A stretch of 64,000 bases of DNA from Selaginella tamariscina (lineage: Eukaryota > Streptophyta > Lycopodiopsida > Selaginellales > Selaginellaceae), in contig PUQB01000272.1 of NCBI GenBank assembly GCA_003024785.1, positions 1 to 64,000 on the forward strand, read 5' to 3'. Positions 22,235 through 61,400 of this stretch are shown piece by piece (within the stretch, counting starts at the first letter, position 1; each line of letters opens with the position of its first letter). The translations under genes and the position numbers were made by a program. The notes beneath the pieces are model-generated. The model did not search any database. It was not told the DNA's origin and saw only the letters and a list, made by a program, of their open reading frames with translations.

Positions 22235-23331
22235 TCCTGCAAAACCTTGACTCCAAACTTGTTCATGGTCAGCTTCACTATTTCGTGGACTGGATCGGTT
22301 CACTAGGTTTGTTCATGGTCAGCTTCACTATTTCGTGGACTGGATCGGTTATCCACCTGGTGAACGCACTTGGGAGCCTGCTGCTCATGGACCAATGACG
22401 AGCACCCGAACTGGATCGGTTATCCACCTGGTGAACGCACTTGGGAGCTTGCTGCTCATCTTGTTCATGCTCCTAATCTTGTTGCCGAGTTCCATCAACG
22501 AACCTGGACCAATGACGAGCACCCGAACTGGATCGGTTATCCACCTGGTGAACGCACTTGGGAGCCTACTGCTCATCTTGTTCATGCTCCTAATCTTGTT
22601 GCCGAGTTCCATCAACGAACCTGGACCAATGACGAGCACCCGAACTGGATCGGTTATCCACCTGGTGAACGCACTTGGGAGCTTGCTGCTCATCTTGTTC
22701 ATGCTCCTAATCTTGTTGCCGAGTTCCATCAACGAACCTGGACCAATGACGAGCACCCGAACTGGATCGGTTATCCACCTGGTGAACGCACTTGGGAGCC
22801 TGCTGCTCATCTTGTTCATGCTCCTAATCTTGTTGCCGAGTTCCATCAACGAACCTGGACCAATGACGAGCACCCGAACTGGATCGGTTATCCACCTGGT
22901 GAACGCACTTGGGAGCCTGCTGCTCATCTTGTTCATGCTCTGCTCATCTGTTCATGCTCCTAATCTTGTTGCCGAGTTCCATCAACGAACCTGGACCAAT
23001 GACGAGCACCGCGCGTCATTGGTTTGCCGAGTTCCATCAACGAACCTGGACCAATGACGAGCACCCGAACCTGGACCAATGACGCGCGGTGCTCATCATC
23101 GATCGTCATCGAAGGGGGAGACTGCTGCTCATCTTGTTCATGCTCCTAATCTTTTGCCGAGTTCCATCAACGAACCTGGACCAATGACGAGCACCGCGCG
23201 TCATTGGTTTGCCGAGTTCCATCAACGAACCTGGACCAATGACGAGCACCCGAACCTGGACCGATGACGAGCACCCGAACCTGGACCAATGACGCGCGGT
23301 GCTCATCATCGATCGTCATCGAAGGGGGAGA
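22235..23331 (+). repeat. Tandem array of chromodomain C-terminal segment, 117-bp unit
   Basis: CTGGATCGGTTATCC recurs at 22411, 22528, 22645, 22762 and 22879, an exact 117-bp period equal to 39 codons. The translated unit starts NWIGYPPGERTWEPAAHLVH and ends RTWTNDEHP. Upstream are partial duplications at 22247-22380. Downstream (22940-23331) are shorter rearranged units rich in CGAACCTGGACCAATGACG. The frame 22370-22963 stays open through all five units, and two other frames are also open because the period is a multiple of three. Confidence 0.85.
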
Positions 23332-23738: not shown

Positions 23739-24945
23739 TAACTGGGTTGGACCTCGGCTTCAACATACGAAGAGATCAACAAAATTTGCATGTGACAGAC
23801 GATGATATGCTTGTCCAATGGGTGAACCAATTGGAAGATCTGGGCAAGAATCTATTGCATGCCAACACCAAAAAGGAAACCATTACGATAACGCCTTCTC
23901 TTATGGCAGTCCTTCAGCAGCGGAGAACCGAGTTGAACCTTATAAAGGAGGATGCTACAAATCACAACAAGCCCTATAGGTGTTTGTTGTTGGATTTAGA
24001 GACTTTATGGGGTGCTTGTAAGAAACCGTTTCAATTGTTTGTGATGGATCGGCAGGTCTCAAAAAATCCTTCAACAGATAGGGCACTAAAGATTTAGTGG
24101 AGAAACTTAGCCATGCAAGCATGTACAAAGAAGGTATTTATTATTGAATTCATGGTTACACTCTTAATTGATACCTACGTTTTCAGATATTTATATCTTC
24201 ATTTTGGCTCATGTCACCGATACTTTTGCCTTCGTCTTCGCTAAGAAGAATAGACATCATTGAACAGGATTTTATATGAACGATGCTAATCCCAAGTGCA
24301 TTGATACGGTTGTTCACTTGATTGTTAGGAATGCGCCAAACAATTTCAAACTTCTAAATGACTGGCCAGGCATCTGTTTGCACTCCAACGTGCCTGAACC
24401 TTCATTTGATACACTGATAGCTAAGAGGGACGTATTCAGCAATGTACGTTATCCAAACATTACAAGTCAGGTTGCACAGAGCATCATCAAATTGATCACA
24501 GGGTTCCTCACAGTGATGCATGGGTTTTTTACTATTGCACTAGGAGATCCATCTTGAAGGAGTGTTACCTTCGGAATACATGTGTGTTTGTCGTTGAAAA
24601 GGATAAGACCATGGTTGAGGACCTGAATAAGTGGATAAAGAGGTTCTCAACTTACTACCTCAACAAACCCATACAAGAGTATTTGGGAAAGTTCCCTTCC
24701 GAGAAATGCAATAGCTCTGAAGAGGAATCTAGTTCAATGTCGAAGTCTGAAGACGATCTTCAATTAAATATTAGACCGGAAGTTATCTCGAGGAGTACAG
24801 AACATTCACATACTCCATTAACCATGGAAACATCAACAGAAGATACGGAAGATTATGAATGATCTTCCAAGCGGCTAAAACCTTCTTCGCCTCACTTAGA
24901 AGGTAACAGCGAAGAAGAATTGTTAATGAATTCTTAGAGTGACAA
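23739..24945 (+). pseudogene. Unrecognised multi-exon gene remnant, possibly methyltransferase-related
   Basis: Right after the LTR a frame reads ITGLDLGFNIRRDQQNLHVT and continues to about 24095 (part of an open segment from 23639). A GT-AG intron fits 24134-24186. Further text includes ILAHVTDTFAFVFAKKN, then MNDANPKCIDTVVHLIVRNA from 24276 and, after a frame change near 24555, CVFVVEKDKTMVEDLNKWIK. The GDPSL...VFVVEKD spacing is reminiscent of the SAM-binding motif of DNA methylases, but that is only a suggestion. The acidic Ser-rich C-terminus ends EEELLMNS near 24937; an internal TGA lies at 24860. Its 3' end is duplicated at 61630-61840. Confidence 0.4.
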
Positions 24946-26556
24946 ATAGTTATAAATGAGTGTAACATAAGGCATTTTTGTATATTTTGTTTATATTTGT
25001 ACAGAAAATAGATTCTCAAGGATTAAAGAAGCTTTTAGTTCAAACATGGGTAACACATTAACAAGGTAAATAATATACCTTGATAATTATAAGGCCAGCT
25101 AACTATCATTTTACAGATGTAATGAAACAGTTGAGAACATGGATTTTCAGCATTGCCATGAGGTAAGAGAGGGGTTTGGTAAAAATTTCTTGTGCCACAT
25201 GTCAAAATGACAGAGTTCATGCAGGAAGTGGATAATAATGTAGCTCAAAACATCCTTACTATGGGGACCACTTTAGTTTTTTCATCACCATTTCTATTAT
25301 CTTCAGTTCCTAAATCACTTTCTTCAGCGCCTCCAATATCTGAATCTTATAAGGATGATGTACAAGTAAATTATAAAGGGATAGGCAACAATATGGTGTC
25401 AACAGATAAATGTGAAAGGGACAAAACAAGTGAGTTGCAAAGCATTCGAGAGGCAAAGTTACCCCTTGTTACCCATGGTCATATTGTGTTATTGGATGTT
25501 AATGGTGTTTTGCTTTATCAACAAAGGCTCGAGGATAAAAAAAAAAAAATCAAACAAGGAGATTTCATTCTTTGTCATGGTAAATTTTGATATGATATCA
25601 TTTTTCGTCCAAGGTCGGACCGTCTCTTTCAAAAGCTTAAGGAGATGGGTGCACTTGTGGGGATTTGGTCATGCATATAAATTCACAACTTGACACTGCT
25701 GCTAAATTTGTTTAAGAAACATTGTAGTGTTGCATAATAGGTGATTCGTAAAGATTGAATTTTTAATCAGCGAATATGTTATAAACCTCTCGAATTTCAC
25801 AATATAAGAAAGGAAAGCAAGCCATACTTCTTCAAGAATGAAAGGTTAATTGAGCTTCATGGGGAGATCAATCAATTAAGGATAATAAAGAATGCACATA
25901 TCTTAGTGATAGACGACTCTCCTTAGAAGGCTATGCTTAATCAAAACATTGCTTGTATCCATCCAACCACTTTCGACCCATATTCTGATACCAATACCAT
26001 GGATGAGCTAGTTAATTACTTGGATATGTGCCTCGGAAAGAAGAATCTTGAAAACTTTTATGAGCAATATCCACCATATCAAACATTTCATGACGCTTTT
26101 TTTTTGTGATTTTGAATTTTATAAAATGAAGGAGAGCAACTGAGTGCTCTATAATATTATTCTTAAAAGAACGTCATTTTTTAGATAAACCTTTATGTAG
26201 TCCTTTCTTATCACAGCTTATATATTAACAAGTATAGCAACTACTAATTGCATTCGTGAGAGTGTTACTATGTATGGTTAAGGAGGAAGTATTTATAAAT
26301 AGATTAACATGCTGATAAGGAAATGATTTCATTTGTAATTATGTTTGATAATATTTTTTAATTATTGTAAATTATTTTTACAACAAAGAATAATATGAAT
26401 ATTCTAAGATATTTTAGGAATATTCCTTACTAAGTAAGGTTATTGAAGGATTAATTTGTTAATTAATTAATATTTAAGATTAATTATATATTAATTAAAT
26501 AATTAATTAATAATTAAGTATTAATTAGCAATTTATTTTATATCCTCATTTTCATG
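24720..26556 (+). repeat. Segmental duplication, inverted copy at 59951-61840
   Basis: The block covers the 3' end of the unrecognised gene, the phosphatase gene and about 270 bp of AT-rich 3' DNA up to a break near 26556 (TATCATGCC). The other copy is inverted and about 33 kb away. Both keep the same introns, so the duplication was at DNA level, not by retroposition. Confidence 0.8.
25046..26282 (+). pseudogene. NIF/FCP1-like HAD phosphatase gene, copy 1 (broken)
   Basis: The frame 25192-25587 starts as PHVKMTEFMQEVDNN after an upstream intron (25066-25116, GT-AG, conserved in the inverted copy). It contains HGHIVLLDVNGVLL, HAD motif I. The usual DxDx(T/V) is DxNG here, a variant I recall in some plant NIF-like proteins. 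A TGA at 25588 replaces an Arg codon. In the following bases RLFQKLKEMGALVGIWSC and VIDDSP (motif IV) are readable across frames, with further stops near 25920 and 26142. Such enzymes dephosphorylate Ser in targets such as the RNA polymerase II tail; this copy cannot make the full enzyme. Confidence 0.7.
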
Positions 26557-27405
26557 TATCATGCCTTACAATGTGCATCTATAACTCTTTTTATTTGAAA
26601 GTTGCCAAGAAATTATGAACCTGTTATGCATCATTCTCATCTAGCATGTACTCTCCCATATCAAGTTGCAAAGCCAAGTTCACCATTGAGATGATGTCCT
26701 CTAGTAGCACTACTTTATTATCAGGCAAGTCATAAATCCAATTCCATGTTTCCACATTTTTCTAATATCAATGCAAGTTGAAACGAATTGGATAACTTAG
26801 CCGATCACAAAGATCCCCTTCTTGGCCTCCTTGATCGCGCCTTGCCGGCCATCCACTAGCTCATGAGTCTCCCTCCATGAACTTCCTAATTTCTTGGACA
26901 TCTTTAGAACTCGTCTAATATACCATATACATTCCCCATCCTCCTAAAAAATTACTGCAACATCTGTTCCAAAACACACTATTGTTTGTGTTCTCACTCT
27001 TCTAGAAATACTACTATCATAAACTCATGCTTTCACCTTTGTTAATTTATCCTTCGATAGAAAGGGATCACCATTTAAATGTGAAATTAGAGTGCTCTTA
27101 GCAATTTTTTCCCCTTTGTTTCCACATAGAAAGTTGTTTCTTTCTGTTTTGATCCTTCTTCATCATCTAGCATCATGTGAAACATATGTCAAAGTTGGAG
27201 TGTGGAAGCAAGATTTTCATCCATTACCTCTCTACTGGCCTTTATGCTTGAGCACTTTATTGCTATTGTGGCTCAACCTCCTCCTTTGGTGCATTTGCTT
27301 CATCTCCACTAGTTCTTTGTAATGAATTGTTGAAGCTTGCTTTGTGAAAGTCCTCGAACTCCCATGGATGATTCCACCAAGTTTGAGTAGTTGAAACACC
27401 GACTT
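26557..27405. other. Non-coding or decayed DNA
   Basis: No gene recognised. Minus-strand frames near 26600-26900 have protein-like stretches (for example LALQLDMGEYML) but with stops, suggesting an old coding remnant. Confidence 0.3.
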
Positions 27406-33324: not shown

Positions 33325-33990
33325 ATTAGTTAATGAATTCCTATTTAGGTGTAGCATATATGTATTAATATTAATGAAAATTGATAGATAGTATTCTCAA
33401 TTAATTAAATGTTATTATTTATTACTATATAGATATATCAAATTGGGAAATATATCAGCATTAAAAGTGTTGTAGGCAACTCTTTCAAAACAAATTATGT
33501 TAACACGTCATGTTGCATTTTTGAGCCGTCGGATACAATAGAAAATTTTAAGAAGAAAGTGGCTTCATCAATTAAAACCTTGCTGGTCGGGCGATGGAAG
33601 TGTGTTTGTGCACAATCATAGAAAAAGAAATCCAAAAAGATAGTGCTATCAAACCATAACAATGATCTAAGTTATCTGCACATACTCAATGGATTTCAAA
33701 AACAAAACTTCTAATGTGGGTTTTGAACTTTCTTAATGTATTAATAAAATAAGTAAATGTAATATAAATAGATAAATTAAAATAAATATTAAATACCTTT
33801 CAATAAGTTTTTTTAAGAATATGCTAAACACTAACATTCATCATTAATGTTAATTTTTATTATATTTTAAAACCTTCAAATACTCAAAATTGCTGACTTT
33901 TTTTTTATTAGCATAATAGGTCATAAATACAATATTTAGGAAATATTTATGTATAAATGTTTATTATATACAATATTATTAAGTTATTGT
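33325..33990 (-). repeat. Inverted copy of 9060-9725
   Basis: The reverse complement follows the 9060-9725 block, including the small ORF at 9256-9546; here its equivalent (33500-33760, plus) has stops. The AP2-like copy C follows, in the same relative order as the arrangement at 50085-51311. Confidence 0.65.
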
Positions 33991-34129
33991 TAATTTTTCT
34001 CTTTTTTTTATTGCATATTCAAAGAGTTTCCTTTGTAATTAAGTCCCATTGTGCTAACAATTTGAATCCGACATTGAGTCCACGTTGCAACTATTCAAGT
34101 CTGAGTAAGAGCCTCTCTTGGGTGGTTCA

Positions 34130-34660
34130 ATTCCAAAAGACATAGCCTTCACCAAGTACATGGAGGAATGCTTTGTCCACATCTTTTGTCAATGTAAAGT
34201 TTTTCTATGGTGCTTCTCAAACTCTTCTTCGAGCTTGATATTAGCCTCTAAATCAGTCCCAAGTTCTACAGCCTCATTTAGTGCACATTGTGCAAGAGAT
34301 GTATTTACATCTGCAAGGGTTGTACGATGGTGCTCCCTTGCAAAGGCTTCAGTGCCTCTATTGCTTCTGCTGCAGTGTCATGTACGCCCAACCATTGCCT
34401 AATAATACCTTCCCGAAACTCAATTGACCATCTCCAATTCTTTTGCTGCCTCAATCCAGGGCATTTATTCTTGCTCTTCTTTATCTTCTTCTCTGGTTGT
34501 GCAGAACTCTAAGCCTGCTCTTGTATGGAAGTTTTGTGTTTCTTGGAATTTTTAACATCTGCCACAAGTGTCCTATCGTCGGATAATCCTCTCTTTTCTA
34601 TTTCTCTTCCTCTAAGACACACTTTGGGTAACCAACAACATCTTGTATAGAAGTTTTGAT
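34130..34660 (-). pseudogene. AP2/ERF-like gene copy C, 5'-truncated
   Basis: Minus-strand text covers the second half of the N-terminal region, the AP2-like domain and one C-terminal unit, with the complement of CCCAACCATTGCC marking the WLG segment near 34390. In-frame TAG codons occur in the N-terminal part (about 34597 and 34513). The start is missing because the copy breaks at about 34660 into an unrelated AT-rich repeat. Only one 20-residue unit is present, as in copy E. Confidence 0.65.
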
Positions 34661-37400: not shown

Positions 37401-39719
37401 CTTGCATGTATTTTAAATATACCCTGGCAAAACAAACAAGCATAAAAGTTTTAACACATAAACTCTCATCGGTAATATTATGAACTAGTCAGGTTTAAAA
37501 AAACCTGAATTGGTGAATATTGTGGTATTCAAACATGAATGTGTACCATGTGGGCATATGATCCGCCCCTCTCTCACACACACTTCAATTTGTTTTACAA
37601 CTGCACAAGTCGGGACTGACTTTTACAATCCTAAATGATTATATGCAATTGTGTATACATCTATATACAGTCTATCATATTGATTACAGGTATAAGTGGA
37701 CATAAAATAACCATAGTGTATATACATTATTATACAATATACATATTATATGTAATATTAACATAAGCAATCATTGTCATATGTGGTGAATGGCATATAT
37801 ATTATGCATATCTATGTTTAAAAAGAAAAAAAAAAGATTTTCTTTTGTACCATTAGCTATTATATATATATATTAGAGTTTAAATGTTAATTATGATTTA
37901 ATAAAAAGTTTGTATTCATTTCTATACATGTTTCACATCATATAAGAAGCAAGCATATGTGTTCGACAGGTTTCATATGCATATCAGTCTCACAGGTTGA
38001 TATAACACCCGCACACACACACATGCACTTTTGTTTGATGTGTTCTTCTTAACTTATTTGAAGAAGCTTTAGTTCACGTTGAATGCATCATCTTTAATTT
38101 TTGTTAATTCTACTATCATTTAATAATTTAGAGTTACATATTTATATTTAGCTTTATTGTGTATGAGAATTTGTTTTAATTTGTAAATCATACATATTTG
38201 CATATTATATATACACCATATTGAAATATCTACAAAATTTCAAAAAACTACGTAAAGTACAAATAAACCATATTCATGAATATATTGATCACTTTAAATT
38301 TGTGTATGTAGATCAACACATGGATTAGTGTTTATGTAATAATTAGTATATATATAAGAAGACACAGAGTTCCAAAGCAACCTCACATATAATTAATATC
38401 TTATTCCAGTTTATATTGAAATGTTGCATTACCAAAATGTTGTTTTGCACTATTCTTTTTGAAAATGCATTCCATTTGAAATATATATATGGTTGGAATT
38501 TGTTTTGCAACCAGGATTTTGAATTTTATTTAAATTCTAAACTTACTTCATGTAAACGGTGGATTCATAAATATTACTAGTCAAGCGTTTTTTGCCATTT
38601 GTTTAATATATAGCTGCATTAGATTTTGATGTGTGCAACCATATTTTATACAGTTAGAATACATGATTTTATAAATTATATTTTAATTTATTTGTCACAT
38701 GAGTAAGGTAATACACCATGTAATTGGAATTGTTATGTACGTATGACAAACAAAGTGTGGATTAAAAAGTGAATTAAACTAAGTCTAAGTCAATGTCCAA
38801 TGTATTAATAATCTATGTATATGTGCGAACTTATGTAACAGAAATTATAATTTCTTGTCAGCTATATGACACCCACAATATGTATTTATGTGTATATTGT
38901 GTCTTATACACCAACGCAGACACACACAAAAACAAATTAACTTCAAGTGTATGATAAAGAGTATCATGCATATAATGGTGTGTGCTTGATTATTAAGTTT
39001 CTAAGTACATATCATGGAACAAAGTATGACATTTGCTGAAATATTAAGAACACCAAAAGCACCATCTTCCTTCCAGCGGTATAGATAAACATTCAAGTAA
39101 TACACCTACATTTCCACTATCAATGTCTTAATGTCTCATGTAAGTGCGTATGGATATCCACAAATGCATGTGTAGGCATGCATTACAATGTTCTTATTAA
39201 CTAGTTATTCAATGTGAGAATCAGAGTATTTAGTAATTGTTAAATCAATGTGGGAATTTTCCCAACACTAAACATACAATTCCAAATTAACACTCAAAAT
39301 TAACATTTTTAATGAAGCTTTATAAGATTCATTAAGAATTACTTTTACAAAAATTGCTGCAATTTTTACATAATAAATTATTATATTTGATATTTTCATA
39401 TTAAAAGAATGTCATATTTAAGCTACTTGTTTATAATTTAAATCTAAAACTCTTGTTAGAATTTAATAATAAATTTTGTAAGTAAAAATGTAGTTATTTT
39501 TGCGTATGTATAATACACACACATACATAATATAATTTAAATAAGACCCTAATTTATTTATCTGTAAATAGGACACAATAACATATATATATATATATAT
39601 ATAATATATATTGCAATGAGTGCAGACCTTAAAATAATGTTTGCACATGAGAGAGAATTGATTTACTTTATCCCTTCCGATGTCTCATACTTAATGTAAA
39701 TTGAATAAATTATTTTAAT

Positions 39720-39954
39720 ACGAGACAAAAGATAAATATACTTCCATAGTATTACATATATAATTTTAAACCTTTATAACTTTTTAATAAATATCAAGAA
39801 TATTCTTAAATATAGCAGTCACATGTAAATTCATTGTGTGGCCATCGGTTGCATCTACAATATCTATTTATAGGTTAGGTTTGTTATTTCCCTTGTTGGA
39901 TTTCCTAGATAATCTTCTTGTGTTGAATAATTTATTTGTTACATAAACATAGTC
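39720..39954 (+). promoter_or_regulatory. Promoter and leader of AP2-like gene copy D
   Basis: TATTTATA at 39865-39872 lies 83 bp before the ATG at 39955. The region is nearly identical to 49860-50084 and matches the complement of 4214-4430, so it travels with the gene. The GTTGCATCTACAATATC stretch before the TATA-like box is conserved in all three. Confidence 0.55.
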
Positions 39955-41414
39955 ATGAGAAATCAACACAAGCAGCATGTGGTTGCCCGTTCCCCAAAGC
40001 GTGTCTTAGAGGAAGAGAAATCAGATGGTAGGACACTCGCAATAGATGTTCAAAGTTCCAAGAAACACAAAACTTCCATACAAGATGTGGTTGGTTACCC
40101 GAAGTGTGTCTTAGAGGAAGAGAAATCAGAAAAGAAAGGATTATCCGACAGTAGGAGACTTGTGGCGGATGTTAAAAATTCTAAGAAACACAAAACGTCC
40201 ATACAAGAACATGCTCAGAGTTCTGCACAACCGGAGAAGAAGAGCAAAAAGAGCAAGAATAAGTGCCCTGGATTGAGGCGGCAAAAGAATGGGAGATGGT
40301 CAATTGAGTTTCGGGAAGGTGATGTTAGGCAATGGTTGGGCGTACATGACACTGCAGCACAAGCAATAGAGGCACGTGAAGCCTTTGCAAGGGAGCACTA
40401 TCGTACAACCCTTGCAGCACAAGCAATAGAGGCACCTGAAGCCTTTGAAAGGGAGCACCATCATACAACCCTTGCGGCACAAGCAATAGAGGCACGTGAA
40501 GCCTCTGCAAGGGAGCACCATCGTACAACCCTTGCGGCACAAGCAATAGAGGCATGTGAAGCCTCTCCAAGGGAGCACCATCGTACAACCTGTGCGGCAC
40601 AAGCAATAGAGACATGTGAAGCCTCTGCAAGGGAGCACCATCGTACAACCCGTGTGGCACAAGCAATAGAGGCATGTGAAGCCTTTGCAAGGGAGCACCA
40701 TCGTACAACCCGTGTGGCACAAAAAATAGAGGCACGTGAAGCCTTTGCAAGGGATCACCATCGTACAACCCCTAGGGCACAAGCAATAGAGGCACGTGAA
40801 GCCTCTACAAGGGAGCACCATCGTACAACCCTTGCGGCACAAGCAATAGAGGCATGTGAAGCTCTCCAAGGGAGCACCATCGTACAACCTGTGCGGCACA
40901 AGCAATAGAGACATGTGAAGCCTCTGCAAGGGAGCACCATCGTACAACCCGTGTGGCACAAGCAATAGAGGCATGTGAAGCCTCTGCAAGGGAGCACCAT
41001 CGTACAACCCGTGTGGCACAAAAAATAGAGGCACGTGAAGCCTTTGCAAGGGATCACCATCGTACAACCCCTAGGGCACAAGCAATAGAGGCACGTGAAG
41101 CCTCTACAAGGGAGCACCATCGTACAACCCCTGCTACACAAGCAATAGAGCCACGTGAAGCCTTTGCAAGGGAGCACCATCGTACAACCCTTGCCTTTGC
41201 AAGGGAGCACCATCCTACAACCCTTGCAGAAGTAAATACATCTTTTGCACAATGTGCACTAAATGAGGCTGTAGAACTTGGGACCGATTCAGAGGCCGAT
41301 ATCAAGCCCCAAGAAGAGCTTGAGAAGCACCATAGAAATACTTTTACATTGACAAAAGATGTGGACAAAGCCTTCCTCCATGTACTTGGTGAAGGCCATG
41401 TCTTTTGGAATTGA
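39955..41414 (+). CDS. AP2/ERF-like protein with a tandem 20-residue repeat array (copy D, one frameshift)
   Basis: The open frame from the ATG at 39955 runs 317 codons to 40908; after a 1-base deletion near 40862 the homologous frame continues at 40953-41414. The N-terminal third is basic and contains two related units with PKRVLEEEKS and SKKHKTSIQ. The AP2/ERF-like core is at residues 104-150: CPGLRRQKNGRWSIEFREGD then VRQWLGVHDTAAQAIEA, matching the three strands and helix of the plant DNA-binding domain but lacking the usual YRG start. From residue 134 the helix segment AAQAIEAREAFAREHHRTTL is repeated about 14 times. The C-terminal tail (LTKDVDKAFLHVLGEGHVFW) is shared with the other copies. 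Likely nuclear; DNA-binding ability is inferred only. Confidence 0.7.
40354..41225 (+). repeat. 60-bp coding tandem array (about 14 units)
   Basis: Units starting GCACAAGCAATAGAGG fall at 40357, 40417, 40477, 40537, 40597, 40657, 40717, 40777, 40837, 40896, 40956, 41016, 41076 and 41136, followed by a shortened unit at about 41196. All spacings are 60 bp except one of 59. Units differ by few substitutions, such as AAAAAATAG for AAGCAATAG. Confidence 0.9.
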
Positions 41415-41585
41415 ATCACCCAATACTCAAACTTGAATAGGTGCAACGTGGACTCAATGTCGGATTCGATTGTTAGCACAATGGAACTTAATTACAAAGG
41501 AAACTTTTTGAATATGCAATATAAAAAAGAAAAATTAACAATAACTTAATAATATTGTATATAATATACATTTATACATAAATAT

Positions 41586-41846
41586 TTAATAATAAATTTT
41601 GTAAGTAAAAATGTAGTTATTTTTGCATATGTATAATACACACACACACATAACATAATATAATTTAAATATAATTTATTTATTTATAAATAGGCAATAA
41701 CATATATATATATATATATATATGCAATGAGTGCAAACCTTAACATAATGTTTGCACATGAGAGAGAATTGATTTACTTTATCCCTTCCGATGTCTCATA
41801 CTTAATGTAAATTGAATAAATTGTTTTAATACAAAACAAAAGATTT
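41586..41846 (+). repeat. Direct repeat of the region upstream of AP2-like copy D
   Basis: The segment from TTTAATAATAAATTTTGTAA through the TA microsatellite to the ATCCCTTCCGATGTCTCATA stretch repeats 39452-39732. The AP2-like gene is thus bracketed by two direct repeats of about 260-280 bp. Confidence 0.7.
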
Positions 41847-42698
41847 ACTTCATGCATACACCATTGTATTGAAGAGAGAGAACTGTAGTAATGTCAATAT
41901 AAAAATTTCATCATACAAATTTGAAAGTTTGTAAATATTTTTACTTCTTGGGCTTGGACAATTGGCTTTGATTATTACACACAATGCAATGTGTCGTTTA
42001 AACATTTGACTATCAACGTGGTTATGATTAATATTTTAGTATATTGAAAAGCCGTAGGCAATAAATACCATACTTCCACCTAATATATGTATTTATATCT
42101 GTACATGGAATCATTAGAATCATAAAATTGTACATTTGTGTATGCTTATGTATACACAAACATGATTATTAAACATGCACATACATATATACATTCCTAT
42201 ATTGTGTGTGCATATGTGTGTAAAACCTCAGTACGGGGTTACCAATATATAGTTCAATATAAAATAAAGTCATCGTAAAAGACCAATATTACATCAATAG
42301 CCCGTAATTATGTGTTCCCATCCGACTCTCGTTTTTCACGATATGTATTGTTTTTTGGTGTTTTTATATGTGCTATAAAATTTGAGTATGATACAGCAAG
42401 TACCATCAGCATGCAAGGATTTGTAAATATATAAAATCTATGTTTATTGTATACATATGCTCCAAGATGTATATATGTATGCATTATATGTAAACCAGTG
42501 GCATGAAGTAGTAATTACAAGGAAGCTCGTCGTGTGTATAAATGCGGGGATCATTGTGTGTATAAATGTGGGGATCATTGTGTATATCAAGATATAGTTT
42601 CCGACGGTTCAAGATATAGAACCGACGGCGTAAGATGCACACACAAATGTGTATATAAATAGGGAAGTATTGTAGGGATTTCATCTTATCTATATGTT
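41847..42698. other. Intergenic DNA upstream of the macro-domain gene
   Basis: Up to 42540 this is the plus-strand partner of 11530-12230. Near 42535-42600 the phrase GGGGATCATTGTGT is duplicated. TATATAAATAGGG at about 42651-42663 is a good TATA box, some 36 bp before the ATG at 42699. Confidence 0.5.
42651..42663 (+). promoter_or_regulatory. TATA box of macro-domain gene
   Basis: TATATAAATAGGG fits the plant TATA consensus and lies upstream of the first exon. The short distance to the ATG implies a very short leader or a start elsewhere. Confidence 0.45.
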
Positions 42699-44230
42699 AT
42701 GGGATCTCCTAAAAGGATGCGCTGTACATTTGACTCTACAGACAAGGATGATGTAAAGAGGAGGAAAATTTCACACCCAAAACTAGAACAAGGTATATTC
42801 TCTTTCAAGTTCTCTCCCACGGCACCATGTACCATAAATTATTCTCTCTTTTTTTTCTTTTCCTTAGGGACTAAGATGGGATCAAAACCAGGACCAACCA
42901 TTGGGGCTCAGTTTAAAATCACCGATTCTTGCACGCTCGCTATTAACTTTGGAGACATCACCAAATGGTGCGTGAATGGCACAACAGACGCCATTGTAAA
43001 TGCTGCTAATAAAAGGATGCTTGGGGTGGTGGTGTTGATGGAGGTATATACACTTCTATAATATAATATTATTTTACATGTTTCTCACACTTATTCCATG
43101 TCACCTATTATTTATTAGCAATCCATCGTGCTGCTGGACCTGAGCTGCGTGCCGCTTGTGAAGGATTGCAAGAGATATCTCCTGACGTCCGTTGTGCTAC
43201 TGGTGGGGCAATTGACACACTGTAAGTTTGCATGTGTGTGCAAGAGAGAGAGTACAATATTTTCTTATGCATTTTAATTTCCAGAGGATTTAAGTTGCCA
43301 GTATCTCGCATAATACACACGGTCGGTCCTATTTACAAGAAGGAGAAAGAAAGCGAGTGCTCCAAGGACCTCACAAAAGCCTATAGGTAAAGCTAAGGTA
43401 GTGGTTAATGTTGTAAGTGTTATAAACATAAAATGTGTCATTCATGCAATTAAATTATAAAACTTTATAATTATATGTATTATTGACAATTAGATATATT
43501 AATTAAACCATATTTTATGAAGCATACTAACGAGACATATGACAGCAACTCTTTGAAGCTGGCAAGGGAGAAGGGCATTGAGTACATTGCATTCCCAGCT
43601 ATTTCTTGTGGTATCTATCGGTAAGTTTTCAATTACTATACAGTAACATATATATAAATATATCCAATGGTATGTGTGAGGCGTATACTGATGTATGTTT
43701 TATATGTAGTTATCCACTCATTGATGCAATAGGTCTTGCCTTGGAAACCTTGAAGGAGAGCTCAAACGGCTTTAAAGAGGTAAATATAAACATAATATAG
43801 TTTGCAATCTATATCAATTAAGCATATGCAATGGATGTTAATAGCATGATTTGCGTGGTCCATATTAAAACCAAACCGGTGAATTTGCACCTATCTTTAT
43901 TTGTAATTTTTATTTCTCGGATGTTATTTCACAAAATATGCACGTGCATGTATAATATATATTATACGTATTTAGTACTGACCAATTTCTATTTAGTATG
44001 AAAATATAAGTGAACCAAAGTATGTTTATTACAAATACATGCTTTATTTTTAATTAACCATACGAGTATAAAATGCTATTGATGTATCAATTAGTATATT
44101 TGTACCAACCATTCAATTGAATATTAATACTTCTTTTCCATGACTTCAGATTCACTTTATATTATTCGAGGAAAACACCTTGTCTGCTTTTCTTGTAACT
44201 GCGAAAGAGAAGTTTGAAAGGATACAATAA
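42699..44230 (+). CDS. Macro-domain (ADP-ribose-binding) protein, seven exons, one frameshift
   Basis: Exons inferred from GT-AG sites and protein continuity: 42699-42792, 42868-43043, 43119-43221, 43285-43386, 43546-43620, 43710-43779, 44150-44230. They total 701 nt, one short of 234 codons. Protein landmarks: basic N-terminus with KRRK, DAIVNAANKRMLG (substrate-loop start), AIHRAAGPELRAAC, IIHTVGPIY, YIAFPAISCGIY and a final KEKFERIQ. These match plant Appr-1''-p-processing-type macro proteins, which bind or hydrolyse ADP-ribose derivatives. The missing base lies in the G-rich run at 43022-43027, exactly where GGGGVDG is expected. Either an assembly error or a recent disabling mutation; everything else is intact. 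Confidence 0.8.
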
Positions 44231-46419: not shown

Positions 46420-47193
46420 TCACACTAGCTCCTTTTCAAGCTCGTGATACCTTCTTGACATAGTCTTGAGGATATTTCCAACGACAGGATCGTGGCCCAA
46501 CATCAAATGTGTCCAACGGCTTTTATTTATTTTGCATTTGTACCTAGGCTCAGTCAAACTACCATTGTTAACGTCGTAAAACTTAGTACAACTTTTAACT
46601 CCATGGTATTTACATGGTATCTGGCTTGGCCACAACGCTTTAGCCTCCCGTATTAACTTTTCCATCTCCGGATGTCTTTTTTCCTTTTTCTTAATGTTCT
46701 TCCCACCCTCAATTGCTTTATTCTTACCCTTTTCCCCTCTACTTACCTCTTCTTCACCCTTAATCTCCTCTCCATACAACAAAAGATCAAACTCGTCCTT
46801 GTTGCCCTCTACCTCCTCAAATAGCCGCTCCAACTCATCCATATTTTCCTTGTTGCCCTTTGAATGCCCCTCTGCCTCCTCATCCTCCTCAAATAACCCA
46901 TCAAACTCATTCATAGTGTCATTTGAATGCCCCTCCAGCACTACCTCCTCACTCTCCACCTTGTTGCGCTTTTCATCCAAAGCATCCACGTTACCTCCCC
47001 TTTTCATCTCCATAGGAACTCCCTTCATCGCCTCTTCAGCCCTTTCCATGCTCCCACCCTCATTTCCCTTTCCTATCTCTTCATCCACAATTAACCATGG
47101 CGGCAGATCTCTGTAATCCCCAACACGCCCATCACGTATTAAGTCAGCCATATAATTAATGTATTTCCTTCTTTTTTTGGGAGGAGGTTCCAC
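46420..47193 (-). CDS. Intact 257-codon protein of unknown function with NLS-like motif
   Basis: One uninterrupted minus-strand frame begins MEPPPKKRRKYINYMADLIR; PPKKRRK resembles the classical monopartite nuclear localisation signal. DLPPWLIVDEEIG follows. Residues about 40-165 are very acidic and Glu-rich with repeated LERLFEEVEG / DGLFEEDEEA-like text. The C-terminal 80 residues look globular: KLIREAKALWPSQIPCKYHG, then SCTKFYDVNNGSLTEPRYKC with three Cys, and a helical end RRYHELEKELV. I recognise no family. It is one of the longest intact frames in a region of broken genes, which favours a real gene. The plus-strand frame at 46694-47116 is its shadow. Confidence 0.55.
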   Translation of the reverse strand: MEPPPKKRRKYINYMADLIRDGRVGDYRDLPPWLIVDEEIGKGNEGGSMERAEEAMKGVPMEMKRGGNVDALDEKRNKVESEEVVLEGHSNDTMNEFDGLFEEDEEAEGHSKGNKENMDELERLFEEVEGNKDEFDLLLYGEEIKGEEEVSRGEKGKNKAIEGGKNIKKKEKRHPEMEKLIREAKALWPSQIPCKYHGVKSCTKFYDVNNGSLTEPRYKCKINKSRWTHLMLGHDPVVGNILKTMSRRYHELEKELV

Positions 47194-47445
47194 AAACTCA
47201 CCCTAGTGCAAAGAACTTGGTTGTGTTGCAATGTGGTTTTGTTGGATCCACATATGGGTCGTCTTCATCGGCAGCACCTACCCAAATGAGTCAAATGAAT
47301 CTCTCTCTCTCTCATCTCTCATATTACCTGAATCACCTTTGGTGTTTGGTTGTGATGGCGGCACTACAAAGTACCATAACCTCTTTTGCTGTGGTTGAAC
47401 AAACATGCACATAATTAATGTGCCATGGATCCTATCGTATCTATT
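47194..47445. other. 5' flank of the 257-codon ORF
   Basis: Slightly more GC-rich than surrounding DNA; a CT microsatellite (TCTCTCTCTCTC) lies near 47301. It may hold the leader or an upstream exon of the minus-strand gene, but no splice pair is convincing. Confidence 0.3.
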
Positions 47446-49693
47446 TTAAATATACCAGACTAACCACGCAAATGTACCGCCTGGCAAAACAAACAAGCAT
47501 ATGAATTTTAACACGTAAACTCTCATCGATCATATAATTGCATAATATTGTGAACTAGCCATGGCCATCATCGGTGAATATTGTGGTATTCGAACATGAA
47601 TGTGTACCATGTGGGCATATGACCCTCCCCTCTGTCACACACACTTCAATTTGCCTTACAACTGCACAAGTTGGGGCTGACTTTTACAATCCTAAATGAC
47701 TATATGCAATTGTGTATACATAGTCTATGACATAAAATACCCATAGTGTATATACATGATTATACAATATACATATTATATGTAATATTATCATAAGCAA
47801 TCATTGTCATATGTGGCGAATGGCAACTAATAAATATATATTATGCATATCTATGTTTAAAAAAGTTTAAAAAAAATCTTCTTTTGTACCATTAGCTATT
47901 GCATAAATATATATATATATATATTAGAGTTTAAATGTTAATTATGATTTAATAAAAAGCCTGTATTCATTTCTATACATGTTTCACATCATATAAGAAG
48001 CAAGCATATGTGTTCAGTAGGTTTCATATGCATATCAGTCTCACATGTTGATATAACACTCGCACACGCACGCGTGCACACACACGTACTTTTATTTTCT
48101 TATGTTGGCTTATTTGAAGAAGCTTTAGTTCACTTTGAATGCGTCATCTTTAATTTTTGTTAATTCTACTATCATTTAATAATTTAGAGTTACATTATAT
48201 ATTTAGCTTTATTGTGTATGAGAATTTGTTTTAATTTGTAAATCATACATATCATATTATATACACACCATATTGAAATATCTACAGAATTTCAAAAACT
48301 ATATAAAGTACAAATAAATGCACTCCTAACAACACATACTCATATTCATGAATATATGGATCGCTTTAAATTTGTGTACGTAGATCAACACATACTCCAA
48401 CATGGATTAGCGTTTATGTAATAATTAGTATATATACATACAAAACACAGAGTCCCAAAGCAACCTCACGTATAATTAATATCTTATTCTAGTTTATATT
48501 GAGATGTTGCATTACCAAATATGATGTTTTGCACTATTCTTTTTGAGAGTGCATTCCATTCGATATAGGAATTTGTTTTTGCGACCAGGATTTTGAATTT
48601 TATTCAAATTTTAAACTTACTTCGTGTAAACGGTGGCATATTTTACTACTTTGATTCATAAATATTACTAGTCAAGCGTTTATTGCCATTTGTTTAATAT
48701 ATAGCTGCATTAGATTTTGACGTGTGCAACCATATTTTATACAGCTAGAATACATGATTTTATAAATTGTATTTTAATTCTCTATTTGTCACATGAGTAA
48801 GGTAATACACCATGTAATTTGGAATTGTTATGCTTGTGAACCCTTCCAAATGTACGTATGACAAACAAAGTGTGGATTAAAGAGTAAGTCTAAGTCAATG
48901 TCCAATATATGTGTTAATAATCTATGTACATGTGCGAACTTATGTACACAGAAATTTTAATTTCTTGTCAGCTATATGACACCCACAATATGTATTTATG
49001 TGTATATTGTGTCTTATACACCAACGCAGACACACACAAAAACAAATTAACTTCAAGTGTATGACAAAGAGTATCATGCATATAATGGTGTGTGCTTGAT
49101 TATTAAGTTTCTAAGTACATATCATGGAACAAAGTATGACATTTGCTGAAATATTAAGAACACCAAAAGCACCATCTTCCTTCCAGCGGTATAGATAAAC
49201 ATTCAAGTAATACACCTACATTTCCACTATCAATGTCTTAATGTCTCATGTAAGTGCGTATGGATATCCACAAATGCATGTGTAGGCATGCATTACAATG
49301 TTCTTATTAGCTAGTTCTTCAATGTGAGAATTAGAGTATTTAGTAGTTGTTAAATCAATGTGGGAATTTTCCCAACACTAAACATACAATTCCGAATTAA
49401 CACTCAAAATTAACATTTTTAATCAAGCTTTATAAGATTCATTAAGAATTACTTTTACAAAAATTGCTGCAATTTTTACATAATAAATTATTATATTTGA
49501 TATTTTCATATTAAAAGAATGTCATATTTAAGCTACTTGTTTATAATTTAAATCTAAAACTCTTGTTAGAATTTAATAATAAATTTTGTAAGTAAAAATG
49601 TAGTTATTTTTGCGTATGTATAATACACACACACACATACATAATATAATTTAAATAAGACCCTAATTTATTTATCTGTAAATAGGACACAAT

Positions 49694-49757
<64 letters not shown>

Positions 49758-49859
49758 ATGAGTGCAGACCTTAAAATAATGTTTGCACATGAGAGAGAAT
49801 TGATTTACTTTATCCCTTCCGATGTCTCATACTTAATGTAAATTGAATAAATTATTTTA

Positions 49860-50084
49860 ATACGAGACAAAAGATAATATACTTCCATAGTATTACATAT
49901 ATAATTTTAAACCTTTATAACTTTTTAATAAATATCAAGAATATTCTTAAATAGATGCAAAATTCCAGTGGCCATCGGTTGCATCTACAATATCTATTTA
50001 TAGGTTAGGTTTGTTATTTCCCTTGTTGGATTTCCTAGATAATCTTCTTGTGTTGAATAATTTATTTGTTACATAAACATAGTC
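49860..50084 (+). promoter_or_regulatory. Promoter and leader of AP2-like gene copy E
   Basis: TATTTATA at 49995-50002 lies 83 bp before the ATG at 50085, at the same distance as in copy D. The sequence is almost identical to 39720-39954 apart from a small replacement near 49955. Confidence 0.55.
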
Positions 50085-50638
50085 ATGAGAAATCAACACA
50101 AGCAGCATGTGGTTGCCCGTTCCCCAAAGCGTGTCTTAGAGGAAGAGAAATCAGATGGTAGGACACTCGCAATAGATGTTCAAAGTTCCAAGAAACACAA
50201 AACTTCCATACAAGATGTGGTTGGTTACCCGAAGTGTGTCTTAGAGGAAGAGAAATCAGAAAAGAAAGGATTATCCGACAGTAGGAGACTTGTGGCGGAT
50301 GTTAAAAATTCTAAGAAACACAAAACTTCCATACAAGAACATGCTCAGAGTTCTGCACAACCGGAGAAGAAGAGCAAAAAGAGCAAGAATAAGTGCCCTG
50401 GATTGAGGCGGCAAAAAATGGGAGATGGTCAGTTGAGTTTCGGGAAGGTGATGTTAGGCAATGGTTGGGCGTACATGACACTGCAGCACAAGCAATAGAG
50501 GCACGTGAAGCCTTTGCAAGGGAGCACCATCGTACAACCCTTGCAGAAGTAAATACATCTTTTGCACAATGCGCACTAAATGAGGCTGTAGAAGTTGGGA
50601 CCGATTCAAAGGCCAATATCAAGCTCGAAGAAGCTTGA
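50085..50638 (+). pseudogene. AP2/ERF-like gene copy E, single repeat unit, frameshifted in the domain
   Basis: The frame from 50085 matches copy D through KNKCPGLRRQK, then loses one base in an A-run near 50415. The original frame continues from there as NGRWSVEFREGDVRQWLGVH, one AAQAIEAREAFAREHHRTTL unit, and the tail AEVNTSFAQCALNEAVEVGT, ending early at 50636-50638. This arrangement, core plus one unit plus tail, is probably the ancestral architecture from which copy D expanded. As it stands, the first frame gives 137 residues with a nonsense tail. Confidence 0.7.
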
Positions 50639-50889
50639 GAAGCATCATAAAAAAACTTTTACATTGACAAAAGATGTTGGACAAAGCATTCCTCCATGTA
50701 CTCGGTGAAGGCCATGTCTTTTGGAATTGAACCACCCAAGAGAGGCTCTTACTTGGACTTGAATAGCTGCAATGTGGAGTCAACGTCGTTTGAATTGTTA
50801 GCACAATGGGACTTAATTACAAAGAAAACTCTTTGAATATGCAATATAGAAAAGAAATTAACAATAACTTAATAATATTATATATATAT

Positions 50890-52180
50890 ACATTTATATG
50901 TAAATATTTCCTAAATATTGTATTTATGACCTATTATGCTAATAAAAGAAAAATCAGCAATTTTGAGTATTTGAAATATAATAAAAATATGTCTAGCATA
51001 TTCTTAAGGAAAACTTATTGAAGGTATTTAATATTTATTTTAATTTATCTATTTATATTACATTTAGTTATTTTATTAATATTACCAAGAAGCTCAAAAC
51101 CCACATCAAAGTTTAGTTTTTGAAATCCTTGGGAGTCCTCATTAAGTATGTGTAGATAGCTTAGATCACTGCTATGGTCTGATAGCACTGTCTTTTTTGT
51201 ACAAACACACTTCCATCGCCAGCCAGCAAGGTTTAATTGATGAAACCACTTTTTTCTTAAAATTTTTTGTTGTATCCGATGGCTGAGAAATGCAATATGA
51301 CGTGTTAACATAATTTGTTTTGAAAGGGTTGCCTACAACACTTTTAATGCTGATATATTTAGTAGTTTGATATATTAATTGAGAATACTATCTATTAATT
51401 TTCATTAATATAATACATATATGCTACACCCTAAATCAGAATTCATTAACTAATATAGGAAAGTGAATTTTATATGTCGGCATGAATGGTATACTTGCAT
51501 ATCTTTAAAATATTACTATTAATGCTAAGATTTGCTAACATTGTTTTAATACTTTTATATTTAAATTAGATACATTTTATATTCTATATTATAAATTCAA
51601 CTATTTGAAAAATAGCTTCAAATTTATAACTAATGAGTGAATGGTGTACATTTAATATATTTATGTATAATGGTACATATCGCATTATATGTGTGTGTGT
51701 GTGTGTACAAGTTAAAGTATATTTATTAGTAGTTTAACATGCACAAAATTATTATATATACAATCATTTATAAGTAAGGGAAATCTTAAAAGAAAAAAAA
51801 ATAGAAGATAAACATCTTTTAAAACATATGTAGGACATGTTGATTATTAGGTCTGGGCACTGTCACTTTTTTACACACTACTCCAGCTACAGTTAACTTC
51901 GTTCACTAAGTTATGTAGATTTATGTATAAAATTTATATTATATTTATTTATATTTTTAGGTTCAATTCCATTGGGGCACTTTATTTAGGCTAGGCACAT
52001 AGCGCAATGAGATTATTTTCTAGGTGTCACTTGAAGTAATTATTGGTTTGTCATTCACTTTTTTGAATTCTAATAAGACTTTCTAAAGTCCTTAATAGAT
52101 TGAAAATTTATAAAAGTGATATTAAATTATAAATATTATTGACGGAGATGAATATATATAAATATAATATACTCTCAAGA
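50890..52180 (+). repeat. Direct copy of 8990-10480
   Basis: Landmarks such as TGTATTTATGACCTATTATG, the small ORF (minus) and TTTAGGCTAGGCACA appear in the same order in both. Between about 52145 and 52240 a short inverted pair flanks GATGCCTATATA words. Confidence 0.7.
51045..51311 (-). CDS. Small conserved ORF of unknown function, copy of 9256-9546
   Basis: 88 codons; shares WKCVC and TVLSDHSSDLSYLHILNEDS with the frame at 9256-9546. It lacks the QSQKGKSKK insert, and the N-terminus is in a different frame relative to that copy. No family known. Both could be remnants of one exon. Confidence 0.3.
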   Translation of the reverse strand: MLTRHIAFLSHRIQQKILRKKWFHQLNLAGWRWKCVCTKKTVLSDHSSDLSYLHILNEDSQGFQKLNFDVGFELLGNINKITKCNINR

Positions 52181-54496: not shown

Positions 54497-57060
54497 TTAA
54501 CAGCATATGCGTTTGACAGCAACACATATGCTCCAGACTGTTGAGAATCCAACCCATCGTACTGAGCAGCACGAGTTACACGTTGAACATCACCATGAAC
54601 ATTACATGCACCAAGCAAGGACATCCATGCAAGACAATCCGGTTCATAAGGCATGCTATAAACAAGCTCTCGGCCTCTTCAAGTCTTCCTAGCCTAGCTA
54701 AGACATCCACAATGGACTCATATTGACCAGCAATCCCATAATCTTCCCTCACGAAAACAAACTGTAACAAAGCCTCTTTCACTAGTCCACCATGGCTACA
54801 AGCGAAAACCAGTGCTGAAAGTGTAACCTCGTCCGGAGTTACACCCTCCAGCTGCATCTCTTGGAAGACCTCAAAGGCTTCCTGCACTGACATGAGCATA
54901 TGCTGCAAGCATTGCAGTCCAGTGAACAAGAGTCCTGATGAAATACACATGAATGCAGCTTCAGCCTCTTTGATGCTCCCACATTTCCCATACATGTCAA
55001 GCAGTGCTCCTTGAACTGCATCCGAAAGACTCACACGCTGAATGCTGGCATGGATCGACTTCCCATACATTACAGAGGTGGCTCGCCACAGGCATCAAAC
55101 ATGGTCACATAAGTTGCTTCCTGGGCTTAACCCCTTGGTGTTGCATCTGATGAAACACTCCCAAAGCTTGCGTGATATGCCCATTCTGAGCATAGGCTGC
55201 AACCATGGCATTCCACGATACTTGATCTCTCCGGTGCATGCTTTCAAACACACGGGCTGCTGAGGTAACGTCCCCACATTTTACCATACATGTTAATCAT
55301 CGTGTTACTAACAGTAACTTGCAAGGTCCACCCTGTGGCAACCGTCCTGTTTTCCAAAGCCATACCTTGTGAGACGTCTTACGAGCACGCACATGCATCA
55401 AGGACGCCAATGTAAGTCACCTCGTCAGGCTCGTCTTCCAGGTCTATATAATGAAGAACTTTCGCTGCTTCCTTGGTATGCCTATGTTGGGCATATGCCG
55501 AGAGCATCAGGTTCCACGTTACCAACCCTTACACTGCAAACGTTCAAGGAGCTTGTTTGCAGCCTCAAAATTCCGGCATTTCCCATACATGTTAATAAGT
55601 GCGGTAGCTACGACAATGTGGGAATCTAAGCCGCTTTGAGTGACCCGTTCATGAATCTCTGGACCGAGCTTCAGATCGAGCAACGCAGTGCATGCATCGA
55701 TAGTGCTAACGAGGGATATAGAGTTGGCTTTCATACCTTCCAGCTCCATCCTTTTGAACAGCACCAGTGTGTGCTTGCCATGCCCATTCTGTGCATAACC
55801 AGAAAGTAAGCAGTTCCATGATATGATATTCTTCCTGGGCAAGCTTTCAAATGCATCTCTCGCTTCTTGCAGGCACCCACACTTGATAAACATGTTCACT
55901 AGAGCGTTTCTAAGCACAAGATCCGTGTCTAAGCACCCTGTGTCTGCTCCCATGTAGAACTGCTATATCATCTCTCACATCCTTAAATATTGATCTGCAA
56001 AGTGCTGAATCTCCTCGCTTACTGTAAGCCTCGAACAGGCTGATGAAAGTAATCCGATCAGGCTGGAAAGCCTTCTATGATCATCCTCTTGAACAGTTTG
56101 AGTGGGTGCTGCGTGCTTCCAGATAATACTTCTGAAGAGATTATCACATTCCATGCGATCAAATCTTTTTGAGTAATCCCCTCAAACACCAGTCTGGCAT
56201 TCTCTAGACTCCCACACCTCACATACATCTTCATGAGTGCATTCCTCACAAACACATCGTTTTCAAACCCAGCCAAAACCAGTCTCTCATTAAGGATATC
56301 TCCATAGCAAAGACATGAGCATGCATTTAACACAGCTGCTAGTGTCACGCTTGTTGGTTTCACTCCTTCGAGTTCCATTCTCCAGAAGATAACCAGAGCT
56401 TCCTGGAAATGCGCATTCTGGACATATGTAGCAAGGAGAGAGTTCCAGCTCACGACGTCCTTGTTCTCCATCCTCTCGAACATGGTTTTTGCATGCTCCA
56501 CGTCCCTGCATTTCCCGTACATATTGATCAGTGTGTTTCCCAAAACTCGGCTAGATATTTCTAGACCGGATTCTACAACGAACTCGTGGAGAAACATACC
56601 TTGAGTGAGATCTGAAAGTGTAGCACAGACGTCTATAACCGTAACAAAGGTGACAACATCCGGTTTGGATCCTGCAAAGCTCATCATTCTGAAGGCCTGC
56701 ATTGCATCCTTGTAATGCCCATTCTGGGCATATGCTGCAATCATGATAGTCCATGAGTAAACGTTCCTCCGACGCAAACTGGTGAAGACATTCTTGGCTT
56801 CCTCTATACAGCCGCATTTACCATACATTTCTATAAGGAAATTTCCCAGGAAAACTTCTTCAACGTGCCTAGTTCGCATCAAGAGTTCGTGGATGCGTTT
56901 GCCCTTCTCTAAGTTCCCGCTGTTCCCACATTTCCTGAGCAAGGATGCATACTCTGAACGACTCACCGTGTGGGGGTCCTTCAGTTCCATCCATCTGAAT
57001 GCTTCTTCTATGTTTCTGGCATGGAATCGTCTCCTGGGAACCTACAATAGTAGCATGCCC
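54497..57060 (-). pseudogene. PLS-type pentatricopeptide repeat gene, frameshifted
   Basis: On the minus strand the repeats run from 57060 to 54497. Open parts lie at 56990-56058, 55953-55519, 55287-55105 and 55070-54576, and are joined by at least four frame changes. Typical PPR phrases abound: LINMYGKC, SWNSLLATYVQNAHFQEAL, FKRMELEGMK, AAYAQNGH, ALLDMYGKCGSIKEAE. The distal end keeps the LLGACNVHGD and GAYVLLSNAY text of the E region. PLS-class PPRs usually act in organelle RNA processing or editing. No DYW domain is seen and the gene starts mid-protein upstream, so this is a pseudogene. Confidence 0.8.
56058..56990 (-). CDS. Longest open segment of the PPR gene (310 codons)
   Basis: Starts MELKDPHTVSRSEYASLLRK and includes about eight PPR motifs in P-L-S succession, ending MIIEGFPA where a one-base change shifts the frame. 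The reading continues upstream of this Met without a stop for about 20 codons (to a TAG near 57041), so this Met may be internal. If expressed it would be a truncated organelle-type RNA-binding protein lacking the rest of the array. Confidence 0.55.
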   Translation of the reverse strand: MELKDPHTVSRSEYASLLRKCGNSGNLEKGKRIHELLMRTRHVEEVFLGNFLIEMYGKCGCIEEAKNVFTSLRRRNVYSWTIMIAAYAQNGHYKDAMQAFRMMSFAGSKPDVVTFVTVIDVCATLSDLTQGMFLHEFVVESGLEISSRVLGNTLINMYGKCRDVEHAKTMFERMENKDVVSWNSLLATYVQNAHFQEALVIFWRMELEGVKPTSVTLAAVLNACSCLCYGDILNERLVLAGFENDVFVRNALMKMYVRCGSLENARLVFEGITQKDLIAWNVIISSEVLSGSTQHPLKLFKRMIIEGFPA

Positions 57061-59900: not shown

Positions 59901-60220
59901 AAAGACTTCGCAAAAGAAAGTAGTGCGCCTCTATGCACGTTGTAACTAAAGTGGGCATGATACGTGAAAATGGGAATATAAAATAAATTACTAATTAATA
60001 CTTAAGTTTTAATTATTAATTAATCATTTAATTAATATGTAATTAAGCCTTAAATATTAATTAATTAATTAATTAACCCTTCAATAACCTTACTTAGTAA
60101 GGAATATTCCTAAAATATCTTAGAATATTCATATTATTCTAAAAATAGTTTACAATAATGAAGAAATACTATCAAACATAATTACAAATGAAATCATTTT
60201 CTTATCAACATGTTAATTTT

Positions 60221-61400
60221 TTATAAATACTTTCTTCCTATCATACAATCATCACTCTCCGGATTAATCAAATCATTTTGGTCAATATCTTGATGTTGTT
60301 GCCACCACTTAACACTCTCACGAATGCAATTGGGAGTTGCCATCCTTGTTAATACATAAGATGTGATAAGAGAAGGTCTGCATAAAGGCTCATCTAAAAA
60401 CTGACGTTCCTTAAGAATAATATTATAAAGCGCCCGGTTGCTATCCTTCATTTTATAAAATTCAATATCACGAGAAAGAAAAGCTTCAGGAAATGTATGA
60501 TACGGTGGATACTGCTCACAAAAATTTTCGAAATTCTTCTTTCTGAGGCACGTATCTAAGTAGTTCACTAGCTCATCCATGATATCGGTATCCGAATATG
60601 GATCGAAAGTGATTGGATGAATACAAGCAATGTTTTGGTTGAGCATAGCCTTCTAGGAGAGTCGTCTACTACTAACATCTGTGCGTTCTTCATTATCCTT
60701 AAGCGACTGATCTCCCCATGAGTCCCAATTATTCTTTCATTCTTGAAGAAGTACGGCTTGCTTTCCTTTCTTATATTGTGAAATTCGAGAGGTTTATAAC
60801 ATATTCGCTGGTCAAAAATCCAATCTTTACGAATCACCTCTTCTGCAAACACTACAATGTTTCTTAAGTAAATTCAACAACGGTGTTAAGTTATGAATCT
60901 ACATGCATGACCAAATCCCCACAAGCGCACCTATCTCCTTAAGCTTTTGAAAGAGACGATCCAACCTTGGACAAAAAATAATATCATATCGAAATTTACC
61001 ATGACAAGGAATGAAATCTCCTTGTTTGATTTCTTTTTTTCTATCCTCGGGCCTTTGTCGATGAAGCAGAACACCATTGACATCCAACAACACAATATGG
61101 CCATGAGTAACATGAGATAGCGTTGCCTCTTGAATACTTTGCAAATCACTTGTTTGCTCCCTTTCACATTTATCCGTTGCCACTATCTCGTTGCTTATCC
61201 CTTCATCATTTAATTGTACATCATCCTTACAAGATTCAGATATTGCATGCGCTGAAGAAATTAATTTCGGAATTGAAGCCAATAAAAATGATGATGAAGT
61301 GGCCCCCATGGTAACGATGTTTTGAGCTGCATTATTATCCATTTCCTGCATGAACTCTGTCATTCTGACATGTGGCACAAGAAATTGTCGCCAAACCCCT
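60221..61400 (-). pseudogene. NIF/FCP1-like HAD phosphatase gene, copy 2
   Basis: From 61378 the minus frame starts MPHVRMTEFMQEMDNNAAQN and reaches HGHIVLLDVNGVLL (motif I with Asn for the second Asp) and RLFQKLKEIGALVGIWSC without a stop. A degraded stretch with stops follows (60900-60850). The frame resumes as FAEEVIRKDWIFDQRICYKP and AQMLVVDDSP (motif IV, about 60665). A one-base loss near 60653 then shifts to the frame 60646-60221, which starts MLNQNIACIHPITFDPYSDT. Motif I is intact here, unlike copy 1 with its TGA, but both genes are broken at different places. Confidence 0.7.

Follow-up and report, generated by a model that had tools for sequence, protein, structure and literature searches.

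Minisatellites consist of several tandem units of roughly 10 to 100 bp each, and short direct repeats are sites where slippage or unequal exchange can start. The AP2/ERF domain is a fold in which a three-stranded sheet is packed on a helix. The locus described here, copy D, lies in the 64-kb stretch of DNA that was analyzed (the window) and is one of five copies, A to E, located on both strands. Like other minisatellites and intragenic tandem repeats, which grow by slippage or unequal exchange, the copy D array has a short unit, a block duplication, direct repeats at unit edges, and a variable unit number; unlike them, it is derived from coding sequence, has a period divisible by three, and yields a repeat peptide that is readable for part of its length. 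Like solved plant AP2/ERF domains (TEM1, ERF096, and ATERF1), the copy D core aligns in order over G-x-R/V...GRW or GKY...E...R-x-WLG...A. Unlike plant domains of the Pfam AP2 family, copy D lacks a Pfam match, has a multiplied helix segment, and has a broken frame. The feature is very probably an intragenic minisatellite that grew from coding sequence within one member of a small, decaying AP2-like gene family, duplicated locally in a land plant. The array is ordinary in kind, and its history is well resolved.

Tandem Repeats Finder detected a 60-bp tandem array at positions 40353 to 41194 (period 60, 14.1 copies, 91% matches, and a score of 1320), far beyond chance expectation. A unit-resolving script delimited 14 units at 40354 to 41192 of the plus strand: 13 units of 60 bp and a 59-bp unit 9 (40834 to 40892, plus strand). 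With the 33-bp terminal partial unit that follows unit 14 (41193 to 41225, plus strand), the array spans 40354 to 41225. Both analyses confirmed the observation, made earlier in a sequence-only reading, that about 14 tandem 60-bp units directly follow the AP2-like core of copy D. The unit numbers proposed there for the other copies were also recovered, with one unit in C and E and six, irregular ones in B. Thus, in having 14.1 units of 60 bp and a unit number that differs among D (14), B (6), and the single-unit copies C and E, the array conforms to the definition of a minisatellite. The claim that each unit repeats AAQAIEAREAFAREHHRTTL did not survive translation: 0 of the 14 copy D units match this peptide exactly. 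The changes include F>S, R>C, A>T, and L>R/P/C, along with others, and prolines are present in units 2, 4, 7, 12, 13, and 14. The single unit of copy E, whose sequence was read by hand, translates to AAQAIEAREAFAREHHRTTL.

The open frame of copy D runs on the plus strand from the ATG at 39955 to a TAG stop at 40906 to 40908. This 317-aa frame (39955 to 40908) comprises a basic N-terminal region, the AP2-like core, units 1 to 8, and the broken unit 9. Since unit 9 has 59 bp, 1 base fewer than unit 4, the frame ends after eight intact units. Stop-to-stop frames over copy D extend from 39931 to 40908 and, in another frame, from 40860 to 41414, both on the plus strand. The part of the array beyond the break and the C-terminal tail (41226 to 41414, plus strand) are read in the latter, out of frame with the ATG at 39955. 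The units had been described as perfectly phased; given the 59-bp unit 9 that ends the frame, this description has to be abandoned, and an uninterrupted reading of 39955 to 41414 does not exist in this DNA. The missing base may be either a biological loss or an assembly error. Long minus-strand frames of 256, 167, and 148 aa, which the sequence-only reading did not mention, are also open across the array.

Elsewhere in the window, each of the other four copies carries a truncation, a frameshift, or a stop. Copy A (4052 to 4449, minus strand) is a 5′ piece only and carries a 1-bp deletion relative to D. Copy B (12360 to 13161, minus strand) is devoid of the 5′ part and the core; its six units include 48-bp and 59-bp ones, and its tail carries a 23-bp deletion. 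Copy C (33941 to 34658, minus strand) is truncated at the 5′ end, contains one unit, and has a CAG-to-TAG change in D’s codon frame and three 1-bp deletions. Copy E (49740 to 50909, plus strand), which has a single unit, lacks 1 bp in the core; in its tail, 2 bp are deleted and 1 bp is inserted. An additional insertion at 41414 in the comparison of D with E reflects the edge of the aligned slice and was left out of the counts. With the D frame broken as well, none of the five copies is an intact coding gene, and we infer that the copy D family would not be expressed.

The identity of the core was assessed using the region that comprises the AP2-like core and the first helix unit of copy D (40261 to 40413, plus strand). 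In a phmmer search of PDB sequences, eight distinct sequences matched at E ≤ 10. The four best were AP2 domains, TEM1 (E = 0.013), ERF096 (E = 0.047), and two ATERF1 entries (E = 0.78 and 0.98); the other four, with E values of 1 or more, were V-type ATP synthase subunit D (three) and a designed helical protein (one). The core thus shows similarity, weak as judged by E value, to AP2 domains of known structure across the sheet and the start of the helix. Its alignment scores with three AP2 fragments, which were chosen as best hits, gave z values of 7.4 to 9.2 relative to shuffles, and 0 of 2000 shuffles reached each score. The Pfam AP2 profile did not match the core in hmmscan searches of Pfam-A at E up to 1 and then up to 10, a threshold at which HMMER filters discard most matches above 0.1, so a significant match to the family profile is absent. 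A single-sequence AlphaFold2 model of the core (pTM 0.30) contains helices along with two short strands. Foldseek searches with this low-pTM model returned three PDB matches at E ≤ 10, all with E of 7 or more and none of them AP2, and 0 matches at E ≤ 0.001. The AP2-like assignment made earlier is therefore retained on the strength of the PDB matches and shuffle z-scores but not of a Pfam AP2 match; that the core is AP2-like, and not an established AP2/ERF member, is a fair but weak reading of its sequence. Three other profiles stayed below their curated cut-offs and were rejected: DUF2188 (E = 0.057; 14 bits versus a cut-off of 22) and KTSC (E = 0.16) on the core, and Mg_chelatase_C (E = 0.0022; 19 bits versus a cut-off of 26) on the array.

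The internal structure of the array records how it grew. A 300-bp block, units 4 to 8 (40534 to 40833, plus strand), was duplicated into units 9 to 13 (40834 to 41132). Over these five unit pairs there are three differences, one of which is the missing base of unit 9: pairs 5/10 and 7/12 are identical, while 4/9, 6/11, and 8/13 differ by one place each. When unit orders were shuffled, a match as good as that of units 4 to 8 with 9 to 13 was seen in 1 of 20,000 cases (a fraction of 0.00005). The single units of E and C have TGCAG at both edges. The ancestral gene may have resembled C and E, with one 60-bp segment that had TGCAG at either end. The first tandem copy would have arisen through slippage or unequal exchange between these short repeats, and further unequal exchange would have lengthened the array, in an order of early steps that is itself conjectural. 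In one late step, the five-unit block 4 to 8 was copied into 9 to 13. Unit 4 has the base that unit 9 lacks, so the loss, if not an assembly error, came after the block copy, and it is this change that ends the frame. The repeat peptide would then be incidental, a consequence of a period that is a multiple of three. Replication slippage had been suggested as the origin of the array; the block duplication and TGCAG edges support an expansion of this type, for which we name unequal exchange equally.

The relationship of copy D to the other copies varies along its length. Copies D and E are 98 to 100% alike at 39915 to 40414 and 98 to 99.6% alike at 38915 to 39414, compared to 89 to 93% between 39414 and 39915 and 78 to 87% at 37415 to 38914. 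Over its 3′ part (41193 to 41587), D matches C more closely (91%) than E (88%). Within the coding tail, it is least different from B, with 7 substitutions in 166 positions (in addition to the 23-bp deletion), compared to 12 in 188 for C and 11 in 187 for E. Because the nearest copy differs between regions, copy D is a mosaic, which recent conversion or recombination among copies would best account for.

We next consider substitutions as a measure of constraint. With each distinct base change among units counted once, 20 are nonsynonymous and 2 are synonymous; because changed bases were classified singly, two nonsynonymous changes are scored for the AGG codon of units 8 and 13. The 17 variable columns are distributed over codon positions 1, 2, and 3 as 8, 7, and 2. 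A recount that started from the E unit and left out units 9 to 13, the recent block copy, again gave 20 nonsynonymous and 2 synonymous changes. About 27% of changes among units are expected to be synonymous under neutrality (transition bias of 2), and the probability of 2 or fewer in 22 is about 0.04, unadjusted. Purifying selection on the repeat peptide is thus without support, and the pattern would fit neutrality or, at most, weak diversification. Neutral substitution had been named, together with a lack of transcripts, as an observation that would speak against the helical-rod reading, and the substitution pattern fits this as far as the window allows. Outside the array, comparisons of D with A, B, C, and E, which all share D and are not independent, gave 72 substitutions: 21 synonymous, 50 nonsynonymous, and 1 stop. 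The expected values are about 24% synonymous and about 5% stop, i.e., 3 to 4 of 72, so stop changes are somewhat fewer than expected. In the 5′ part alone, D and C differ by 25 changes, of which 10 are synonymous and 12 are at third positions, a hint that the ancestral gene may once have been constrained. The openness of the array is uninformative about a protein role: when 14-unit arrays were simulated from an open unit (4000 simulations each), the share that stayed open ranged from 28% with 60 neutral substitutions to 64% with 22, and an open array is thus likely by chance. When shuffled 60-mers of the same composition were repeated, a mean of 2.67 of six frames was open (n = 5000); for the consensus unit, the value is 4. 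The array is widely open on the minus strand as well, and several frames are likewise open in a second coding-derived array of the window, that of the Ty3-type element described below.

The sequence-only reading had proposed that the repeats form a helical rod, possibly a spacer or oligomerization arm. Copy D would then encode a genuine AP2-like protein, with its DNA-binding helix lengthened into an arm of 8 units, or 14 if the gap in unit 9 is an assembly error, that serves as spacer or in oligomerization. Some observations speak against a minisatellite in a decaying gene: D has one frame break only, which also favors the arm and, as a single-base change, may stem from sequencing or assembly; the first eight units and the N-terminal part are open; the 5′ comparison of D with C hints at past constraint on the ancestral gene; stops outside the array are somewhat too few; and the nonsynonymous excess among units can also be read as diversification. 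Single-sequence AlphaFold2 models contain long helices; from residue 131 onward, 16 of 19 blocks of ten residues have a pLDDT of at least 75 (range, 58 to 92). The pTM values are low (0.27 to 0.30), and the models agree with the helical repeat proposed earlier without thereby demonstrating function. Against an arm stand the unconstrained changes among units, the prolines in six of the units, the frame break in unit 9, the broken state of every sister copy in the window, and the failure to find a relative. Residues 1 to 152 of copy D gave 112 candidates in a protein database, none matching at E ≤ 1, and residues 90 to 155 of the 317-aa frame gave 19, none matching at E ≤ 10; the database includes plants, since a PPR frame of the same window found matches there. 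Units 1 to 6 had 0 matches among PDB sequences at E ≤ 1, and Rfam yielded 0 matches at gathering scores. Among viral contigs, 4 stretches fit a pattern and 0 were relatives; among prokaryote contigs, 96 fit and 0 were relatives, as expected for a plant locus. The relatives that the earlier reading had proposed to look for were thus not found among proteins or viral or prokaryote contigs. The openings of published abstracts contained nothing on an AP2 helix array, and such work may still exist. We consider a functional arm in copy D very unlikely. Expression of an AP2-like protein with a DNA-binding helix that runs into a repeated helical arm, whether from copy D or from an intact relative at another place in the genome, is also very unlikely.

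It is likewise very improbable that misassembly accounts for the length of the array or for the deletion in unit 9, and that the actual locus contains fewer units or keeps its frame. The break involves a single base, two unit pairs are identical, and a 300-bp block repeat is of the kind that assemblers misplace. Nevertheless, the two blocks are distinguishable, since units 4/9, 6/11, and 8/13 each differ at one place (in 4/9, the missing base itself); copy B holds six units independently; and other copies show changes that exceed single-base noise, namely the stop and the 23-bp deletion. Somewhat different is the possibility, unlikely but compatible with the minisatellite reading, that the AP2-like module was cargo of a non-autonomous mobile element and spread by transposition. 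The presence of five copies, distributed over both strands of a 64-kb stretch, would suit such a history, as would the position of copy D between direct repeats of ~270 bp (39461 to 39733 and 41584 to 41844; 90% alike), in whose alignment no terminal motif was recognized. However, homology reaches far into flanks that differ between pairs (3.1 kb for D and E, 1.7 kb for B and D, and 1.4 kb for C and E), which fits segmental duplication and conversion.

As an intragenic minisatellite in a decaying gene, copy D would be a small, clear case of a repeat peptide that arises without selection, by amplification of a coding segment whose period is divisible by three. Part of the array stays open simply because the unit itself is open, which calls for caution before such arrays are taken for protein innovation. 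Were the helical-arm reading true, it would represent a new way to extend the DNA-binding helix of a transcription factor.

The window is rich in local duplications. The ~270-bp repeat that brackets copy D is also present 3′ of copy B (12490 to 12221) and 5′ of copy E (49571 to 49875). Segments of 1.8 kb at 24744 to 26565 and 59954 to 61826 form an inverted pair that is 87 to 88% alike, and nested tandem arrays with units of ~34, 54, 60, 88, and 113 bp are located at 16053 to 17324, upstream of a Ty3-type gag frame. A 117-bp tandem array at 22388 to 22940 (4.7 copies, 98% alike) is built from parts of the chromodomain of a fragmented Ty3-type retroelement; two of its plus frames and one of its minus frames are open. 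Like the copy D array, it is derived from coding sequence, has a period divisible by three and several open frames, and resides in a fragmented host element; unlike it, it derives from another domain and has units that are 98% alike versus 91% in D, for which reason it is probably the younger of the two. The homology of copy B to the D flank stops at 42559, just before a plus-strand frame (42663 to 43061) that has no Pfam match at E ≤ 1 and contains a putative macro-domain-like stretch, as judged by its motif. A 260-aa minus-strand frame at 46423 to 47202 weakly matches the Dof zinc finger (E = 0.00012), at 22.6 bits versus a cut-off of 26.6. For the PPR frame at 56061 to 57041, the best match, among the best 120 of 221, is from Selaginella moellendorffii (43% identical over 78%), which would point to a land plant, perhaps a lycophyte, as the source of the DNA. 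Short runs of GGGTTTA and TTAGGGT repeats, which we take to be of the plant telomere type, are found at 63281 to 63317 and 63743 to 63768.
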